DNA of 64,000 bases from Sinonovacula constricta (Eukaryota; Mollusca; Bivalvia; Cardiida; Solecurtidae), in NCBI GenBank assembly GCA_007844125.1, contig CM017555.1, positions 27,457,624 through 27,521,623 on the forward strand, given 5' to 3'. Under the pieces are notes generated by a model. That model made no database searches, was not told the origin of the DNA, and saw only the letters and a program-made list of their open reading frames with translations. Positions 11,806-64,000 of the stretch are shown here, in pieces. Made by a program: the position numbers and the translations under genes. The first letter of the stretch is position 1, and the number at the start of each line of letters is the position of its first letter.

Positions 11806-12559
11806 ACTATGTCTATACCAGATACATGTTAGGTACTACACACACACACATTTGATGGACAAAATGTTCACATAAAATCTCGCGATCACAGATACTATGT
11901 TATTCTCTTTATCATTGTGGTTCAACATTTTTGCTTTTGTGTGTTTTTTTATAGAAAAAATGCAAATTTGATCAAAGATAACAAAATCGACTGTTAAATT
12001 GTTTTGTTTTTAGTGTATAAAAGTTAAAGGTTTAAAAATTCTTAAAACAATGTTTAACATTTTGAATTAATAAATGTTGTCCTAGTAATACAAATTGGAG
12101 CGTTTTTGCTTTTGTTTTTCAAATTTAACAATTTACTTGAAATTATCGGCGGAAAATCGTCATCTCAACGCCATTTTAATAAGGTGTCACTGTTAACCAT
12201 GCATTCTCTTTGCAGGCGCAGTATTCATCGAAAAGAACCATCAACAGACGGTGGTTGCCAAAATAATGTTTATATACATAACAGTGAAAACTATTTACTG
12301 ATAATAGATTTATTTACTTCATAAAGTAAGCATACCATATTTTCGACGGCTTGGAAGTATGGTAAAAAGTAGTAAAACGGGTAAATACAAGTAACGTTAC
12401 AACGTCAACTAGCAGTATTGTCGATGGACCAGCTATTAAACATTATTATGGATCTGAAAGCATTAGTTATAATAAAAATCCAACAGTTTAACAGATGTCA
12501 ATATCACTATTTAAGTAAGGTCGTAAGAGGTGTAGCCTACACAGTGATCTTTTTCACGT
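11806..12559. other. AT-rich spacer
   Basis: A short (CA)n run lies near 11838-11850. No gene or recognised repeat otherwise. The open frame at 12106-12324 has no recognisable domain. Confidence 0.4.
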
Positions 12560-14089
12560 TATAAGCTGCACATCATTTAAGTCTGGTGGGTTAAAAGTGG
12601 ACGCAGTGCACCTCATGGCCGTTACAAGACGCACACCGTTTAAGACAGGTGGGTAATAGCTATGTACACAGTGCACCTTATGGCCGTTATAAGCTGCACG
12701 CCGTTTAAGTCAGGTGGGTAATAGATGTACACATTGCACTTTATGACCGTTAAAAGATGCACACCGTTTAAGTCAGGTAGGTAATAGATGTAAACAGTGC
12801 ACCTTATGGTCGTTATAAGCTGCACACCGTCTAAGTCAGGTGGGTAATAGATGTACGCATTGCACTTTATGACCGTTATAAGCTGCACACCGTCTAAGTC
12901 AGGTGGGTAATAGATGTACACATTGCACTTTATGGTCGTTATAAGACGCACACCGTCTAAGTCAGGTGGGTAATAGATGTACACATTGCACCTTATGACC
13001 GTTAAAAGATGCACACCGTTTAAGTCAGGTGGGTAATAGATGTAAACAGTGCACCTTATGGTCGTTATAAGACGCACACCGTTTAAGTCAGGTGGGTAAT
13101 AGATGTACACATTGTACTTTATGACCGTTAAAAGATGCACACCGTTTAAGTCAGGTAGGTAATAGATGTACACATTGCACTTTATGACCGTTAAAAGACG
13201 CACACCGTTTAAGTGGGGTGGGTAATAGATGTACACATTGTACTTTATGACCGTTAAAAGATGCACACCGTTTAAGTCAGGTGGGTAATAGATGTACACA
13301 TTGCACTTTATGACCGTTAAAAGATGCACACAGTTTAAGTCAGGTAGGTAATAAATGTACACATTGCACTTTATGACCGTTAAAAGATGCACACAGTTTA
13401 GGTCAGGTAGGTAATAAATGTACACATTGCACTTTATGACCGTTAAAAGATGCACACAGTTTAAGTCAGGTAGGTAATAAATGTACACATTGCACTTTAT
13501 GACCGTTAAAAGATGCACACAGTTTAAGTCAGGTGGGTAATAAATGTACTCATTGTACTTTATGACCGTTAAAAGACGCACACAGTTTAAGTCAGGTAGG
13601 TAATAAATGTACACATTGCACTTTATGACCGTTAAAAGACGCACACCGTTTAATTCAGGTGGGTAATAGATGTACACATGGCACCTTATGGCCGTTATAA
13701 GCTGCACGCCGTCTAAGTCAGGTGGGTAATAGATGTAGCCTACGCATTGCACTTCATGACCGTTACAAGCCGCACACCATTTAAGCCCGGTGGGCAATAG
13801 ATGTACACAGTGCACCTTATGGCCGTTACAAGCCGCATACCGTTTAAATGAGGTGGGTAATAGATGTACACGGTGCACCTTCTGGCCGTTATAAGCTGCA
13901 AACCGTTTAAATCAGGTGGATAAAGGTGTACACAGGGCACATTATGGTTGTACACTGTGTCGTATTATTGCCGTATTAAGCCACACACACATAAGAGGTG
14001 ACACATGGCACCTTATGGCCTGTATAAGCCACACAATGTTTAAGTCGGATGAGTAAAAGGTGCACACAGTGTCCCGTTAGGCCACGTTG
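12560..14089. repeat. 63-bp minisatellite, block 1
   Basis: About 22 units of 63 bp (for example GTCAGG at 12709 and at 12772), more decayed after 13960. Key unit parts: TCAGGTGGGTAATAGATGTA, ACATTGCACTTTATGACCGT and AAAAGATGCACACCGTTTAA. Because 63 is divisible by three, a minus-strand frame stays open for 412 codons (13878-12640) as 21-residue repeats of the type 'YYPPDLNGVRLLTVIKCN'. I regard this as a probable by-product of the unit length, not a demonstrated protein: there is no start context, splice pattern or known domain. Confidence 0.9.
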
Positions 14090-14101: not shown

Positions 14102-14316
14102 TTGTTTGTTTGTTTATTGGGTTTATCGTCCCACCAACAGTATTTCAGTTATCTGGAGACGGTGTCCACTTGAAGCAGTTATAGTGCTGCCTTCACTGTG
14201 TATAGCATGCCGTGAACACCTGGCATGATACCACACCCAGTCACATTATCCTGACACCGGGCCAACCAGTCGTGGAACTACCCTTATATTTGCCTGAGCG
14301 TTAGCAAGGGAGCTAT
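14102..14316 (-). mobile_element. SINE family S3, copy inserted in the minisatellite, with TSD
   Basis: Starts with (GTTT)n followed by ATTGGGTTTATCGTCCCACC, AACAGTATTTCAGTTATCTG and GTGTCCACTTGAAGCAG, and ends CCTGAGCGTTAGCAAGGGAG. A perfect 12-bp direct repeat AGAATAAGGTGT flanks it (14090-14101 and 14317-14328), so both borders are fixed. It is the reverse complement of the copies at 30-185, 3640-3805 and 17101-17345. Confidence 0.88.
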
Positions 14317-22770: not shown

Positions 22771-22800
22771 TTTACTGTTAGACCATGAAGTGTGTTTATA

Positions 22801-23708
22801 GAATCATGGACAATTCTCCATCCGGACATTTCTCCGTTCGTTGTTTTTCACACCCCGGACAATTCTCCGTAGCTTTGCAGGGTCAGACAATTCTCCGTTC
22901 GTAGCTTTGCACGGCCGGACAAATCTTTGTTCATATTTTAAAGTCAATCGCCATTTGTTAAACCGACACATTATGATCTCATTATTATGTATTTTATATT
23001 GTTATCTATGATCGGTGGATTTATTTAAAGCAACTGCCCATTTGGTGCTTACAATCAACAAACATCTCTGTTGGTCACTTACACACTTTTAGAGCAAAGT
23101 GAAGTGATTATTGAAGAAGTTATTGAAGAACAAAATCCAAGACTAGTACATACTTAATTAATTGTTTTAATTGAAATAGACAAGGTACGTGTCATAAAAA
23201 ATAAATACAAATTTAAAAGTACAAAACACAAGAAACATACTAAGCACTGAATAATGAGAACACATACAAAATAAACATTTTACTGAACAATAGAACTGTA
23301 TATAAAGCACAAGATCTTTAGCACTACACATAAGAACTGTCACATTTTATTGGTTTCTAATGGTCCAGGCGGACACACTTTCCAATTGCCTTCAGGAACT
23401 CGCGGACATCCTTGTCACCGTTGTGTAGTTCCTAAAACAGTCCCTTCAGTCTCTATTGATGTGCGACTGCGGTCTTCTTTCGACTTTTTTTTGACGTTTA
23501 TATACTTTATTACATTTTGATATCATGAGCGAATTATAGTCCGCTTTATTTAACATATGACAATGAGAATATGAACGGAGATTTGTCCGGGTGTGCAAAC
23601 TCATGAACAGAGAATTGTCCGGCCCTGCAAATCCACGAATGGAGAATTGTCCACCTGTGCAAATTTCACGAACGGAGAAATGTCCAGACGGAGACTTGTC
23701 CGGACCCT
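22801..23708. mobile_element. non-autonomous DNA transposon with phased GGAC-array inverted repeats (element 2)
   Basis: 908 bp flanked by the 9-bp direct repeat GTGTTTATA (22792-22800 and 23709-23717). The left end has GGAC at 22808, 22824, 22857, (AGAC) 22885 and 22917; the right end has the inverse GTCC at 23698, 23682, 23649, 23617 and 23585. Spacings from the outside in are 16, 33, 28, 32 and 16, 33, 32, 32. Units are of the type GGACAATTCTCCGTTCGTAG followed by CTTTGCACGGCC. The first GGAC is 7 bp from each end. The interior (about 22930-23570) has no coding capacity. Nine-bp duplications are typical of Mutator-like elements, but no transposase is present to confirm it. Confidence 0.85.
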
Positions 23709-23764
23709 GTGTTTATATGATGTTTCTCACTATCAAAACTAATGTATAATTGGGGAATTGTGGG

Positions 23765-25760: not shown

Positions 25761-26879
25761 TAACGAAGCCTCACAGTCACTTTATGTTACAGAGATATCT
25801 GTATTAATAAAAACATAAGTATTGATATATTGTTTCAATGTATTTGAGTAATTTTTGCAATGAATTATTGGATTTATATCAAAATGTAATTATTCATTAT
25901 TCATAAAGCTTAATTACCACTAGGGATGTAAGGGAACATTCAAACGAATGGATAGATACTGATTGTTCAAATGTATTTTTAGCATTCAAATGTTTGGTAA
26001 ACAAAATATGATTCTATTCCAAAAAATTGTTTTCACTAAACTGAAATCATATAACCAAAAAACGTAAACCTTAATTGTTTAACATTCACACCTGCTGCCA
26101 GTTAAGATGTGTTAAATTGTGGTGGTCAGGTAATAACCAGTGTCATTGCATCAGAAAAGGAAGATCATTTATATTATTGTAGTTTTTTCTATTATTTCAG
26201 TGGCGTATGAACTATTAACTGTATCCACTTTGCTAGTGTTCAACTTGGGAAATTTCCTCAAGCTATTCACGGCAGCCGATAACGTAATATAGCAACTGGT
26301 TACCCGCTTTCATACTGTACAACCCAGTAGGACAGTAATATCATGGAACCAGTCTGGTCAAAATGAGGTTCAATGAATTTATAATTAGATCACGTTATTT
26401 GGTTATTATATACAATGATAAGGACTGAACAGTCACCTTTTATACATCAATTAACCAAACATTTTTTATTGTTGCATCGGCTTGTATATAATTACTCTGG
26501 TGTATTATTCAATGAAAAAGCAAATGTGCAGGATGTTTGCAAGACAAAAAAATGTCTCAACAGAATGCAAAAAATTGTATATGTACAGGTTATTGATGTG
26601 TTTTCAGCAAAAGAAATACTGACATAAGTAAAGTCTAATAAGGGTTGTATGTTTATTAATTAGTACAGTGGCCAACCAGGTGCTTGAAAGAACTGTTCCA
26701 ACTCTCGCACATTTTGTGTGTCCAATGTTGGTCTGTCAGTGTTGCTTGTCTAACTTTCCACGTCACTGGCTGAAACCGGGGAGGTGTCCTACGGAGATTC
26801 ATTCTTTCTGTAATATTCTTTAAAATAATTATAAATAATCAAAAATTATCAACAACAATTTTGTTTATTCCATAGATAA
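25761..26879. other. AT-rich spacer
   Basis: No gene or clear repeat. The open frame at 26415-26627 has no domain. Confidence 0.35.
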
Positions 26880-27030
26880 GGGGATGGGGGCTTTTGTCCT
26901 ACCTTTAAAATTTATTGAGGGGGCTTTTTTCCTATCTGCAAAAATGATGGGGGGTCTTTTGTCCACCAAATCATTTTTAATGAGGGGGCTTTTGTCGGGG
27001 GGGGGGGGGGGGGGCTTTTGTGTACCCCCG
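26880..27030. repeat. one-sided phased GTCC array with 18-bp poly-G
   Basis: GTCC or near-variants recur at 26896, 26929 (TTCC), 26961 and 26994 (GTCG), spacing 33, 32, 33, with units of the type GGGGGCTTTTGTCCACCAAA. A run of 18 G lies at 26997-27014. The spacing and the G-rich/GTCC grammar match the right ends of the elements at 22801-23708 and 61612-63081, but I found no matching left end upstream, so this may be a solo or decayed end. Confidence 0.6.
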
Positions 27031-31740: not shown

Positions 31741-33163
31741 TAGATAAAAATAACATCTTGTCAATGTTTTATGTCCTGCTTTTCTTTATTGTCCTCAATA
31801 TAGTTAAATTATAATTGCCAAGTATTAAGCATGTTGGAAGTAACTCTGGTTAAAGATGGCTATCAGATAACTCCAATCAGGGTCAGATAGCCCCAATCAG
31901 GGTCAGGTGGCCCTCGTCAGGGTCTGATAGCTCAATCAGGTTCAGATAGCCCCAATCAGGGTCAGATAACCCTCGTCTGGTTCAGATAACCCTCGGCTGG
32001 GTCAGATAACCCTAATCGGGGTCAGATAGCCCCAATCAGGGTCGTATAGCCTTCGTCAGGGTCATATAGCCCCAATCAGGGTCGTATAGCCCAATCAGGG
32101 TCATATAGCCCTCGTCAGGGTCGTATAGCCCCAATCAGGTTCAGATAGCCCAAATCAGGGTCAGATAGCCCTCGTTAGGATCAGATAGCCCCAATCAGGA
32201 GCAGATAGCCCGCAAAAGGGTCAGATAGCCCCAATCAGGGTCACATAGCCCTCCTCTGGGTCACATAGCCCCAGTCGGGGTCAGATAGCCTTAATCAGGG
32301 TCAGATAGCTCCAATCAGGATCAGATAGCCCCAGTCAGGTTCAGATAGCCCTCGTCTGGGTAAGAAAGCTCTCGTCTGGGTCAGATAGCCCCAATCAGGG
32401 TCAGAAAGCCCCAATCAAGATCATATAGCCCTCGTCAGGGTCAGATAGCCCCAATCAGGGTCAGATAGCCCAAATCAGGGTCAGATAGTCCAATCAGTGT
32501 CAGATAGCCCTCATCAGGTTCAGATAGCCCCAATCAGGGTCAGATAGCCCAATCAGGATCAGATAGCCCCAATCGTGGTCATATAGCCCTCGTCAGGTTC
32601 ATATACCCCTAATCAGGGTCAGATAGCCCCAATCAGGGTCAGAAAGCCCCAATCATGGTCATATAGCATTCGTCTGGGTCAGATAGCCCCAATCAGGGTC
32701 AGAAAGCCCCAATCAAGATCATATAGCCCTCGTCAGGGTCAGAAAGCCCCAATCAAGATCATATAGCCCTCGTCAGGGTCAGATAGCCCCAATCAAGATC
32801 ATATAGCCGTCATCAGGTTCAGATAGCCCCAATCAGGGTCAGATAGCCCAATCAGGATCAGATAGCCCCAATCGTGGTCATATAGCCCTCGTCAGGTTCA
32901 TATAGCCCTAATCAGGGTCAGATAGCCCCAATCAGGGTCAGAAAGCCCCAATCATGGTCATATAGCCCCAACCAGGGTCATATAGCATTCGTCTGAGTCA
33001 GATAGCCCCAATCAGGGTCAGAAAGCCCCAATCAGGGTCAGAAAGCCCCAATCAGGGTCAGATAGCCTTTGTCTGGGTCAGATAGCCCTAATCAGGGTGA
33101 GATAGCCCCAATCATATCACCAGTCAGGGTCATATAGCCTTGCCTGGGTCAGATAGCCCCATA
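31741..33163. repeat. 20-bp minisatellite with flank, duplicated unit 1
   Basis: A 140-bp unique-looking flank (TAGATAAAAATAACATCTTG to TGGTTAAAGATGGCTATCAG) is followed by about 60 units of a 20-bp repeat, consensus GTCAGATAGCCCCAATCAGG with variants CCTCGTCAGG, CATATAG, CAGAAAG. Inside, longer blocks recur, for example the order 'AATCGTGGTCATATAG, CGTCAGGTTCATATA' at about 32570 and 32870 (about 300 bp apart). Confidence 0.9.
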
Positions 33164-33976
33164 TAGATAAAAATAACATCCTGTCAATGTCTTATGTCCT
33201 GCTTTTTTTATTGTACCTCAATAAAGTTAAATTATACTTGCCAAGTTTTTAGCATGTTGGAAGTAACTCTGGTTAAAGATGGTTATCAGATAGCCCTAAT
33301 CAGGGTCAGATAGCCCCAATCAGGTTCAGATAGCCCTCGTCAGGGTCAGATAGCTCAAACAGTTTCAGATAGCCCCAATCAGGGTCAGATAACCCTCGTC
33401 TGGGCCAGATAGCACCAATCAGGATCAGATAGCCCCAATCAGGGTTGTATAGCCCTCATCAGGGTTATGTAGCCCCAATCAGGGTCGTATAGCCCAATCT
33501 GGGTCATATAGCCCTCAAAAGGGTTGTATGGACCCAATCAGCTTCAGATAGCCCAAATCAGGGTCGTATAGCCCTTGTTAGTGTCAGATAGCCCCAATCA
33601 GGAGCATATAGCTCCAATCAGGGTCAGATAGCCCCAATCTAGGTCAGATAGCCCTCGTCTGGGTCAGATAGCCCCAATCAGGGTCAGATAGCCCCAATCA
33701 GGATCAGATAGCCAGAGTCAGGTTCAGATAGCCCTCGTCTAGGGCAGAAAATCCTCGTCTGGGTCAGATAGCCCCAATCAGGGTCAGAAAGCCCCAATCA
33801 GGGTCATATAGCCCTCGTTATTGTCATAAAGCCTCAATCAGGGTCAGATAGCCTCAATCAGGGTCAGATAGCCCCAATCTGGGTCAGATAGCCCAATCAG
33901 GGTCATATAGCTTTCATCAGGGTCAGACAGTCCCAATCAGGATCAGATAGCATTTGTCTGGGTCACATAGTCCCAA
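33164..33976. repeat. 20-bp minisatellite with flank, duplicated unit 2
   Basis: The same flank restarts at 33164 (TAGATAAAAATAACATCCTG), 1423 bp after its first copy, and is again followed by the 20-bp array with a similar starting order of variants. This is a tandem duplication of flank plus array. Confidence 0.88.
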
Positions 33977-61139: not shown

Positions 61140-61611
61140 TCTTTATCTCCACTTATCTCCTCCTCACCTTTATCTCCACCATCTCCTCTTCATTATCACA
61201 ATTCTTGTTATGATCTCCTCCTCACCTTTATCTCCACCATCTCCTCATCATTATCACAATCCTTGTTATGATCTCCTCCTCACCTTTATCTCCACCATCT
61301 CCTCATTATTCTCACAATTCTTGTTATGATCTTCTCCTCACCTTTATCTCCACCATCTTCTGTTCATTATCACAATCCTTGTTATGATCTTCTCCTCACC
61401 TTTATCTCCACCATCTCCTGTTCATTATCACAATCCTTGTTATGATCTTCTCCTCACCTTTATCTCCACCATCTCCTTTTCATTATCACAATTATAGTTA
61501 TAATCCCCTCCTTACCTTTATCTCCACCATCTCCTCATCATTATCACAATTCCTGGTATGATCTCCTCCTCACCTTTATCTCCATCATCTCCTGTTCATT
61601 ATCACAATTCC
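61140..61611. repeat. 58-bp minisatellite, left part
   Basis: Units CTCCTCCTCACCTTTATCTC, CACCATCTCCTCATCATTAT, CACAATCCTTGTTATGAT repeat every 58 bp, starting about 60 bp after exon 9. A marker variant CAATTATAGTTATAATCCCC lies at about 61489. Confidence 0.93.
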
Positions 61612-63081
61612 GAATCTAGGACAGTTGCCCCCCCGGACGTTTGCCCCCCGGACGTTTGCCCCCCTATTTGTGAAGGGCGGACGTTTGCCCCCCAGCTGAA
61701 ATTACAAGGCGGACGTTTGCCCCCCAGCTGAAATTACAAGGCGGTCGTTTGCCCCCCAGCTGAAATTACAAGGCGGACGTTTGCCCCCTCTACTAAAATG
61801 TCAAGGCGGAAATTGCCTACCCTTTCTTCTCAAACTCTGTATCCCGCCTGTAAATGTCTTCCCGCCATATTAGAAACATACACAAACGGTACTACATGGT
61901 GCTACAGTACATGAAATGTGTTAGGTGTAACCAAATTTTCTATAATTTTTTTCATAGGACTGGAATTAAGTAAAAGTTACAATCTAGTTTGCCTTCATAT
62001 CTTTACATCGCATCAGGTTCCGAGACAATTTACCCGTTCTAAAACTCTCGCCGTCGAACCCGCAAGATTTCGGCTTTAACAGGTTGTTTGCTACACATTT
62101 CCCGCGATCGCTTGCCACTCATGCGTAGAGTGTCACAAACAGGTTAACTGTCAATCAACTGGTAGGCCTAGACCCATTTAAAACACTTTGATTAATCAAA
62201 ATTAGTTTGCAAAATTCACGTATTGTAGGCATAATTTCGTCTGAAAAACTATATAGATCCGTTTAATGTTTTTCTTCTGTTTTGTCAAGTATTATATATT
62301 TTATGTTTTTAGTAACTTTATAAAATGCACCTCATTTTTATATCTCATAGGGATGACATGTAAAACGAGACAAAATAAATTCAAGTTTTATTACAGGCTT
62401 AATTACAACAGTTTCAATAATAAGAATATAACACGTGAAAGTACAACTGACAAAAATAATGAAAACAAATATACAACAAGCACATTTTGATTAGAACATT
62501 TTCAGCGAACGAGGTAAGAGTCCATCATATTTAAAGGACTGTGCTTACAGTTTGCATTTTGAGACGTGATAACGTGACAAATAAACACAATTTGTGACAT
62601 TCCTTTAATTGAATCTCCTGGATTTAATTCGGCCAATCAAAGAAACCGTCGCGTATAATTTAATGCAATACAGTTAATTGTTTATAATTAAATAAAATCA
62701 TGTTAATCGCCGTTAATTGGCATTCTCTGTGAAATTAGTAATGCAAAGAAACCGCCGCGTATAACTGAACGCATTACAGCTAATTGTTTATAATTAAGTA
62801 CAAGGATGTTAATCGCCGTTTTTTACATTCTTTGTAAAATTAATGAAATTGACAGATTGATTTTTTTTAAAGTCCGCCCTTACGTTATGGGGGGGGGGGG
62901 GGGGGGGGCAAAAGTCCGCCCTCAAGTTTTGTTGAGGGGGCAAACGTCCGGCTTTGAAAATCGGCAGGGGGGCAAAAGTCCGGCTCTGAAAAACGACAGG
63001 GGGGCAAACGTCCGGCCTGCATTTAAAAGAGGGCAAACGTCCGGGGGGGCAAATGTCCGGGGGGGCAAATGTCCGTGCACC
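61612..63081. mobile_element. non-autonomous DNA transposon with phased GGAC-array inverted repeats (element 1), inserted in the minisatellite
   Basis: 1470 bp flanked by CACAATTCC (61603-61611, 63082-63090). Left end GGAC at 61619, 61635, 61650, 61679, 61711, (GGTC) 61743, 61775; right end GTCC at 63071, 63055, 63039, 63010, 62978, 62946, 62914. Spacings from outside: 16, 15, 29, 32, 32, 32 and 16, 16, 29, 32, 32, 32. Left units are GGACGTTTGCCCCCCAGCTG plus AAATTACAAGGC. The first GGAC lies 7 bp from each end. The interior has a 106-bp tandem duplication (62641, 62747) and a 20-bp poly-G (62889-62908) but no transposase. Nine-bp duplications suggest Mutator-like mobilisation. Confidence 0.9.
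62636..62855. repeat. 106-bp tandem duplication inside element 1
   Basis: AGAAACCGTCGCGTATAATT (62641) and AGAAACCGCCGCGTATAACT (62747) start two copies that both run through TAATTGTTTATAATTAA and TGTTAATCGCCGTT. Confidence 0.88.
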
Positions 63082-63090
63082 CACAATTCC

Positions 63091-64000
63091 TGGTATGATC
63101 TCCTCCTTACCTTTATCTCCACCATCTCCTCATTATTATCACAATTCTTGTTATGATCTTCTCCTCACCTTTATCTCCACCATCTCCTGTTCATTATCAC
63201 AATCCTTGTTATGATCTTCTCCTCACCTTTATCTCCACCATCTCCTGTTTATTATCACAATCCTTGTTATGATCTTCTCCTCACCTTTATCTCCACCATC
63301 TCCTTTTCATTATCACAATTATAGTTATAATCCCCTCCTTACCTTTATCTCCACCATCTCCTCATCATTATCACAATTCCTGGTATGATCTCCTCCTCAC
63401 CTTTATCTCCACCATCTCCTGTTCATTATCACAATTCCTGGTATGATCCGCTCCTCACCTTTATCTCCACCATCTCCTCATTATTATCACAATTCTTTTT
63501 ATGATCTCCTCCTCAGCTTTATCTCCACCATCTCCTGTTCATTATCACAATCCTTGTTATGATCTCCTCCTCACCTTTATCTCCACCATCTCCTGATCAT
63601 TATCACAATCCTTGTTATGATCTCCTCCTCACCTTTATCTCCACCATCTCCTCATAATTATCACAAGCTTGTTATGATCTCCTCCTCACCTTTATCTCCA
63701 CCATCTCCTCTTTATTATTACAATTCTTGTTGTGATCTCCTCCTTACCTTTATCTCCACCATCTCCTCATTATTATCACAATCCTTGTTATGATCCCCTC
63801 CTCATCTTTATCTCCACCATCTCCTCATCATTATCACAATCCTTGTTATGATCTCCTCCTCACCTTTATCTCCACCATCTCCTCATTATTCTCACAATTC
63901 TTGTTATGATCTTCTCCTCACCTTTATCTCCACCATCTCCTCATAATTATCACAAGCTTGTTATGATCTCCTCCTCACCTTTATCTCCACCATCTCCTCT
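63091..64000. repeat. 58-bp minisatellite, right part, continues past the window
   Basis: Same 58-bp unit as 61140-61611. The rare variant CAATTATAGTTATAATCCCC reappears at about 63316. Taking out element 1 and one target repeat (1479 bp), the two markers are 348 bp apart, exactly six units, so the array already had a six-unit higher-order period before the insertion. Confidence 0.93.

Follow-up and report, generated by a model that had tools for sequence, protein, structure and literature searches.

A probable FLYWCH-MULE foldback copy in the bivalve Sinonovacula constricta, with stepped GGAC arrays whose spacing seems better conserved than their letters

The 908-bp element at positions 22801-23708 of the window (the whole stretch of 64,000 nucleotides analysed) is best read as a non-coding copy of a FLYWCH-MULE foldback transposon, whose stepped GGAC arrays are likely binding sites of its transposase. 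We put the probability of this reading at about 0.72. It builds on what can be read in the DNA: 9-bp target duplications at several sites, a C-terminal remnant of the transposase within the element, intact genes lying between like arms elsewhere in the genome, and the lineage of a second element in the window (element 1). The element treated here, called element 2 below, is an ordinary kind of mobile element from a known class, the foldback MULEs. Its parts are as follows.

22792-22800, no strand: left copy of the target site duplication GTGTTTATA, matching the right one at 9/9 letters
22801-23708, minus strand (that of the transposase remnant): element 2, 908 bp, putative non-coding FLYWCH-MULE foldback transposon copy
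22801-22807, plus strand: left tip GAATCAT, 7 bp, the end at the transposase 3' side
22808-22930, plus strand: left GGAC array, motifs at 22808, 22824, 22857, (AGAC 22885) and 22917; steps 16, 33, 28, 32
23360-23488, minus strand: C-terminal transposase remnant, 77% identical to aa 438-480 of the L060 protein, E 7e-16
23575-23701, minus strand: right GGAC array, GTCC at 23585, 23617, 23649, 23682 and 23698; steps from the tip 16, 33, 32, 32
23702-23708, minus strand: right tip AGGGTCC, 7 bp, the end at the transposase 5' side
23709-23717, no strand: target site duplication GTGTTTATA, right copy

The preliminary description had recognised an element of 908 bp with a 9-bp target duplication, a first GGAC 7 bp from each end and a second one 16 bp further. 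All this is borne out: GTGTTTATA is perfect on both sides, and the 7 and the 16 are found in both arms. The steps of 32-33 bp that it saw further inward hold for the right arm (33, 32, 32), but in the left arm (33, 28, 32) one step is broken and one motif reads AGAC. The arms are inverted relative to each other, with 70 bp at 81% and 34 bp at 91% identity, and are composed of tandem subrepeats, since 32-bp units are present in both. The pattern GGAC-N12-GGAC-N29-GGAC is present in each arm of element 2, nowhere else in the 64-kb window, and not once in 100 dinucleotide shuffles. No open frame of at least 100 aa overlaps the element, Rfam at gathering scores yields nothing between 22700 and 23800, and the FLYWCH and MULE domains seen in its coding relatives are absent from the element itself. 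Because only the last 43 codons of the transposase (aa 438-480, minus strand) are retained, it looks like a deletion derivative: a gene-less form likely made from a FLYWCH-MULE foldback transposon by internal deletion. Such an element would depend on transposase from elsewhere.

Element 2 has 266 matches in the 1.22-Gb genome (40 of 230 candidates scored). Most copies compared at both ends have a target duplication of 9 bp: it flanks elements 2 and 1, an element 1 copy on C5, a copy at C1:21.12 Mb and the loci L002, L009, L021, L064, L066, L067 and L068; eight of nine letters agree in L017, L026 and L070. Three of the loci, L009, L016 and L017, lie within 13 kb on C16 at the same or nearly the same target site and are counted as one. 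In L072 both arms are present, and no matching duplication was seen by eye. Among the 30 loci L001-L030, 8 gave a duplication pair that agreed in at least 7 of 9 letters, of which the one in L005 was dismissed as spurious because of its tips; among the 22 loci without a pair, many lacked one or both ends. Arms differ widely in their number of units, with 3 GGAC steps at the low end and about 20 at the high end (L029, L014).

The presumed source of the remnant is seen in the coding relatives, where a FLYWCH zinc finger, placed N-terminally, is combined with a MULE domain. L060 has an open frame of 480 aa (FLYWCH E 7e-12, MULE E 2e-10) between arms that are 99% identical over 132 bp, with a target duplication of 10 bp as counted by eye. 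The gene recurs in a second copy, L065 (99%), whose arms are 99.5% identical over 214 bp. Intact genes of about 480 aa were read in two lineages, L060/L065 and L064/L066, and the MULE domain PF10551 was found in L060, L064, L065, L066, L068 and L034. Three residues, D187, D253 and E392, are invariant in 10 aligned proteins; judging from MULE motifs, we take them to be the likely catalytic triad. The nearest matches of the transposase with a named source are uncharacterised mollusc proteins (Ruditapes, Mya, Dreissena). When the genome was searched with the MULE domain, 150 of 302 candidates were scored and 146 matches obtained, some of them in or beside copies of element 2: C8:13479747 between the arms of L003, C12:25540908 beside L027 and C6:248570 beside L022. 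A further group, L034-L039 and L041-L043, consists of nine nearly identical copies with a frame of 651 aa that holds FLYWCH, MULE and a weak PHD finger; all three copies checked have 8-bp duplications (L034 read as 8 by comparison). Viral contigs searched for relatives of the transposase gave one stretch that matched a pattern, and none was confirmed.

A MULE-type transposase, a target duplication within 8-11 bp and long terminal inverted repeats place the element in the MULE superfamily; arms composed of tandem subrepeats are those of the foldback type. Target duplications of 9 bp and tandem-repeat arms are also the features of the Drosophila Foldback element, FB/NOF. Helitrons and Helentrons are not known to make a target site duplication, whereas 9-bp duplications are present here. 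A tandem-repeat Helitron (Helentron) or a foldback element of the P/Galileo superfamily has nevertheless to be considered, for both types can, by the partial descriptions at hand, carry internal tandem repeats. As described in passages of PMC3688188, Galileo has long, internally repeated arms, and secondary binding sites of its transposase were demonstrated in the repeats; this transposase, however, belongs to the P superfamily and has a THAP domain, which makes it another lineage altogether. The FLYWCH-MULE protein inside matching arms and the 9-bp duplications refute either identity for practical purposes, and we give it next to no weight.

The closest known systems are the foldback MULEs Phantom, Muta1 and Tm1. 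The relevant passages of PMC5225508 list MULE transposases of 504 and 554 aa for Muta1 and Muta5 of Aedes aegypti and a FLYWCH finger in 13 of 14 Muta families. According to the same passages, Muta1 and Muta5 make 8-9-bp duplications and have a terminal motif of 10 or 8 bp followed by subterminal tandem repeats, which in Muta1 are 12 bp long with spacers of 3-4 bp, a period of about 15-16 bp; Muta elements have many non-coding derivatives that keep the arms. The FLYWCH-MULE protein, the size of the duplications, the short tip before tandem repeats and the non-coding derivatives are thus alike. In contrast to what is described there for Muta1 and Muta5, the inner array here has mostly 32-34-bp steps, with 16 in the outer pair, each end has its own 7-bp tip, and the host is a bivalve.

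Tm1 of root-knot nematodes, as far as it is described in the corresponding part of PMC3169594, duplicates 9 bp at its target and has asymmetric tips of 7 bp with GGA directly after them; its composite arms are built of 13-15-bp tandem repeats, its FLYWCH-MULE protein of 496 aa is Phantom-like, and it has MITE-like derivatives. By this description it resembles the present elements in its duplications, in the asymmetric 7-bp tips before GGA, in tandem-repeat arms and in the protein. It differs in the length of the repeats, for which no 32-bp step is stated in that part of the paper, and in the tips (CGGTTAA and CCTACCC in Tm1); by tips and unit lengths, element 2 falls outside the Tm1 family proper. 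Phantom MULEs are described in part of PMC6446971 as having a FLYWCH zinc finger in some members, 8-10-bp duplications and animal hosts, and in these points they agree with our elements by description. The Phantom hosts listed there are flatworm, arthropod, crustacean, tunicate and ichnovirus; a mollusc is not among them, in contrast to the host here, and the mollusc groups listed, MULE-Cg and MULE-Mollusca, stand without a zinc finger. A paper on bivalve transposons counts MULEs, and Foldback, Phantom or FLYWCH do not appear in the portion of its text covered (PMC10294476). In the titles and abstract openings searched, which leave out most subscription papers, no description of the 7/16/32 plan or of foldback MULEs in bivalves was found.

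The window contains a second element with stepped GGAC motifs.

61603-61611, no strand: target site duplication CACAATTCC, left copy
61612-63081, minus strand: element 1, tips GAATCTA and GGTGCAC; steps 16, 15-16, 29, 32, 32, 32
63082-63090, no strand: target site duplication CACAATTCC, right copy

Element 1 has been called exactly like element 2 in its spacing. It is not: its steps are 16, 15, 29, 32, 32, 32 in the left arm and 16, 16, 29, 32, 32, 32 in the right one, so that there is one extra step of about 16 and a joint of 29. The sharing of GAATC-NN-GGACA by the left tips, also mentioned before, is correct (GAATCAT in element 2, GAATCTA in element 1). In the genome, element 1 has 140 matches (40 of 337 candidates scored), many of them 98-99% identical over the left 900 bp. 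One of its copies, L063 on C7, is 3.1 kb long and has transposase pieces between its arms, which match the L060 protein at aa 1-55 (42%), 53-105 (47%), 104-204 (50%) and 424-478 (29%). Another, L083 on C4, of which the sequence examined holds the right end only, has such pieces on the inner side of this end: aa 1-49 (45%), 53-105 (45%), 104-200 (54%), 207-273 (66%) and 258-286 (48%). An 88-aa transposase query also matches the inner side of element 1 arms at C11:53865517, C4:46044225, C14:29414850 and C13:44839422. The pieces in L063 and L083 indicate that elements 1 and 2 represent two lineages of the same transposon type, related by descent.

The preliminary description implied instead that two independent transposons had converged on the same spacing. 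At E 1e-3 the two elements show no nucleotide match to each other, and their C-rich fillers differ, as such a convergence would have it. The transposases of the two lineages, however, are homologous, similar tip types stand at the same sides of the gene, and a residual similarity of the fillers persists in register. We consider convergence very improbable; the shared transposase rules it out, unless chance insertions account for the pieces in L063 and L083.

The fillers had been called unrelated, and they are better described as diverged. Gapped arm identity between lineages was uninformative here (shuffles averaged 0.61-0.63), and a register test was used instead; its 12 p values are uncorrected, and its sets include stray GGACs outside the arrays (one row in A, one in C) as well as rows with 16-bp steps (B, C, D). 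With D standing for element 1, A for element 2 and the other letters for the lineages listed below, the 20 bp before GGAC are more alike than in column shuffles for A-B (0 of 2000), A-C (p 0.0005) and C-D (0 of 2000), followed by B-C (0.0095), B-D (0.0125) and A-D (0.027). Elements 2 and 1 are thus connected directly at p 0.027, and via a third lineage at p 0.0005 and 0 of 2000. The 12 bp after GGAC are alike for A-B and weakly for C-D (0.02), and for no other pair, the value for elements 2 and 1 being 0.44. Examples of fillers are GAAATTTGCAcAGGTGGACAA in element 2 and CAAAATTTGCATAGGTGGACAA in L064.

Arms were read in six lineages or sublineages and in one distant lineage. Each is given below with the identity of its transposase to that of L060 and with the steps from the tip inward.

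Lineage A (element 2): 77% in the remnant, 82% in the best piece of L003; 7, 16, 33, 32, 32
Lineage B (L060, L065): 99%; 7, 16, 33, 32, 32, 16, with an inner step of 31 in one L060 arm
Lineage H (L068, L069, L070, L072): 50-64% by method; 7, 16, 33-34, 33, 32
Lineage C (L064, L066, L071): 56-57%; 7, 16-17, 34, 32, 16
Lineage G (L067): 48-57% by piece; 7, 15, 34, 32, then 22 and further 32 inward
Lineage D (element 1): 29-66% by piece; 7, 16, 15-16, 29, 32, 32, 32
Lineage F (L034 and relatives; 8-bp target duplications): 24%; 7, 17, 25, then 32 or 20 depending on the end, the 20 standing at the 5' end and counted by eye

Some of the motifs in the arms are variants such as TGAC, GGAT or AGAC. 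The tips at the 5' side are of the type GGNGTNC or GGTATCC and those at the 3' side of the type GAATC or GAATG, with single-base variants, in elements 1 and 2 and in lineages B and C; lineage H shares only the 5' tip type.

The recurrence of the steps is seen best in loci that were chosen by transposase similarity alone. All eight of them (L064, L066-L072), which span three lineages and include two with the 5' arm only (L069, L071), have at least one arm with steps of 15-17, 33-34 and 32-33; L065, picked with an adjoining GGAC match, was left out of this count. In five of the eight (L064, L066, L067, L068 and L070, the last with 8/9 letters) the 7-bp tip is fixed by the target duplication. The best single case for a spacing that outlives its motif is L067. 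It has a perfect 9-bp duplication and 7-bp tips; its GGAC slot reads TATC, GCTC, GATC, GTTC, AGTC or GGTC, while the AATCCCC core after the slot and the first steps are kept, with a 22 step in each arm. In L064 and L066, growth of a C-tract has brought the outer steps of the 5' arm to 20 and 27, and target duplications and genes are intact. Four other copies of lineage C (L076, L078, L081, L082) have the outer step of 16, L082 also one step of 38, and at two of the seven predicted lineage C ends that were fetched (L077, L080) no array was seen.

Chains of GGAC were found in only 2 of the 30 top MULE loci (L031-L060). The plan is therefore not general to MULEs, but belongs to part of the MULEs of this genome. 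A genome search for GGGGTNCGGAC-N0..20-GGAC gave 153 matches, against 62 for the pattern read backwards. Among the 100 matches listed, 67 have exactly the 16-bp spacing; these are near-identical members of a single family and cannot be counted as independent cases. Of the remaining 33, 21 belong to one satellite on C10.

How such arrays might work can be sketched from their geometry. The FLYWCH zinc finger of each subunit would read one site of about 16 bp, made up of GGAC and a C-rich stretch, and two sites 16 bp apart, 7 bp from the cut, would form the terminal complex. The inner sites, one every 32 bp or about three helical turns, might load further subunits on one face of the DNA, and this loading could bring the two ends of the element together. 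Spacing would then change more slowly than letters, because the geometry constrains the complex; the letters would drift with the DNA-binding domain of each lineage. In its strongest form this becomes a spacing code that outlives its letters: the transposase would measure a rigid 7/16/32 geometry, while lineages rewrite motif and filler along with the DNA-binding domain and so acquire private ends on a shared frame. We advance it tentatively, at less than even odds. Several arrays do not comply: element 1 with its 15-16 and 29 steps, lineage F with 17, 25 and 32 or 20, L067 with its 22 steps, and L064 and L066 with outer steps of 20 and 27.

Common descent together with the duplication of units might suffice to keep the same spacing, with no need for selection on helical phase, and the arrays might be by-products of hairpin or slippage repair. 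The transposase ancestor shared by all lineages fits this, as do the range of unit numbers per arm, the conversion-like extension of one arm in L065 (see below) and the C-tract slippage that altered the outer step in L064 and L066. Against it, the outer step of 15-17 and the joint of 33-34 are single-copy in most arms and are kept at 50-64% protein identity. The spacers between arm and gene, moreover, vary while the steps stay: in L060, L064 and L070 they measure 551, 323 and 401 bp on the 5' side and about 380, 451 and 329 bp on the 3' side, i.e., they differ by about 100 to 230 bp. In L067, finally, the motif slot stays in place though its letters changed. Descent and duplication alone appear rather unlikely to us as the whole explanation. 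Single-copy steps kept across lineages beside variable spacers suggest a constraint; they are a pointer, not a proof.

Conserved spacing, as proposed earlier from elements 1 and 2, is supported and extended by the recurrence of the steps in lineages B, C, G and H, one of them without GGAC. Selection on motif phase is plausible but short of proof, since the lineages are all homologous and a period can persist through the duplication of units alone. The geometry of the transposon seems better conserved than its letters. The genome itself is a natural experiment on this point: the arms of several lineages match, their spacing is nearly equal and their letters differ, and in two of these lineages intact genes of about 480 aa were read.

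The view that array units are homogenised within each element came with a proposed comparison of left and right arms, which was carried out. It does not hold as a rule. In set A (element 2), arms are 0.75 identical within a copy (6 copies), 0.873 between copies for the same arm (57 pairs) and 0.741 for opposite arms (57 pairs). Element 1 (D) has 0.777 and 0.779 within a copy and 0.987-1.0 for the same arm between copies in the usable rows, and lineage C has 0.918 and 0.941 against 0.966 and 1.0. In A, C and D, identity within a copy is thus below that of the same arm between copies; the arms of one copy were not homogenised during the spread of these copies. Lineage B comes closer to the expectation, its arms being about as alike within a copy as between copies: 0.943 (5 copies) against 0.927 for the same arm (20 pairs) and 0.924 for opposite arms (20 pairs), with single within-copy values of 0.992 in L060, 1.0 in L065 and 0.832 in L026. 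For sets A and B, the arms L003_5, L024_3 and L021_5 were assigned by hand, L011-L014 and L016 were left out, and L009 and L017 are near-copies of one locus. The two arms of L065 are equal along 214 bp, further inward than the 132 bp that those of L060 share, and the inner sequence is found in one L060 arm only; one arm of L065 may have been copied onto the other, in a conversion-like manner.

The 32-bp unit may itself be a diverged pair of half units of about 15-16 bp. In 26 units, the first 13 bases match the second half best at an offset of 15 (132 matches; the next best, 109, at 16). This similarity has p 0.0003 in B and in G and 0.038 in H, the value for H being unreliable, since cutting the second unit of L070, which is 34 bp, at 33 shifted two of the six H units by one base; it is not significant in A (0.12), C (0.24) and D (0.85). 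The unit is likely a doubled 16-bp unit in some lineages, which is unproven in others. If true, this would link the 32-bp arrays to the 12-15-bp repeats of Muta1 and Tm1.

The window also contains a third, decayed relative.

26668-26805, minus strand: transposase piece, aa 359-404, 48% identity, E 1e-11
26886-27027, minus strand: adjoining array, unit GGACAAAAGCCCCC on the minus strand, period about 33

A C-tract has grown in this array. A second (left) arm or a target duplication was sought for it and not found.

Inspection by eye of the long inverted pair at 14164/17172 revealed no GGAC array. Two long tandem arrays, at 12557-13946 and 31863-33951 of the window, have periods of 63 and 20 bp and no evident tie to the elements. 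In the genome, 32-bp units of the element 2 type seem to have expanded to about 1.8 kb at C1:4236959-4238766 and C1:4651206-4653045, on opposite strands, as judged from match runs only, and L014 and L029 hold about 16-20 steps; such expanded arrays are possible seeds of a satellite. A frame of 188 aa with a MULE piece is listed at 19 places, L067 among them, with scores that are equal or almost so, likely the trace of a recent burst. Element 1, finally, splits a 58-bp tandem array, which runs through 61155-61610 and resumes on the other side at 63082-63999, a natural picture of a filled target site.
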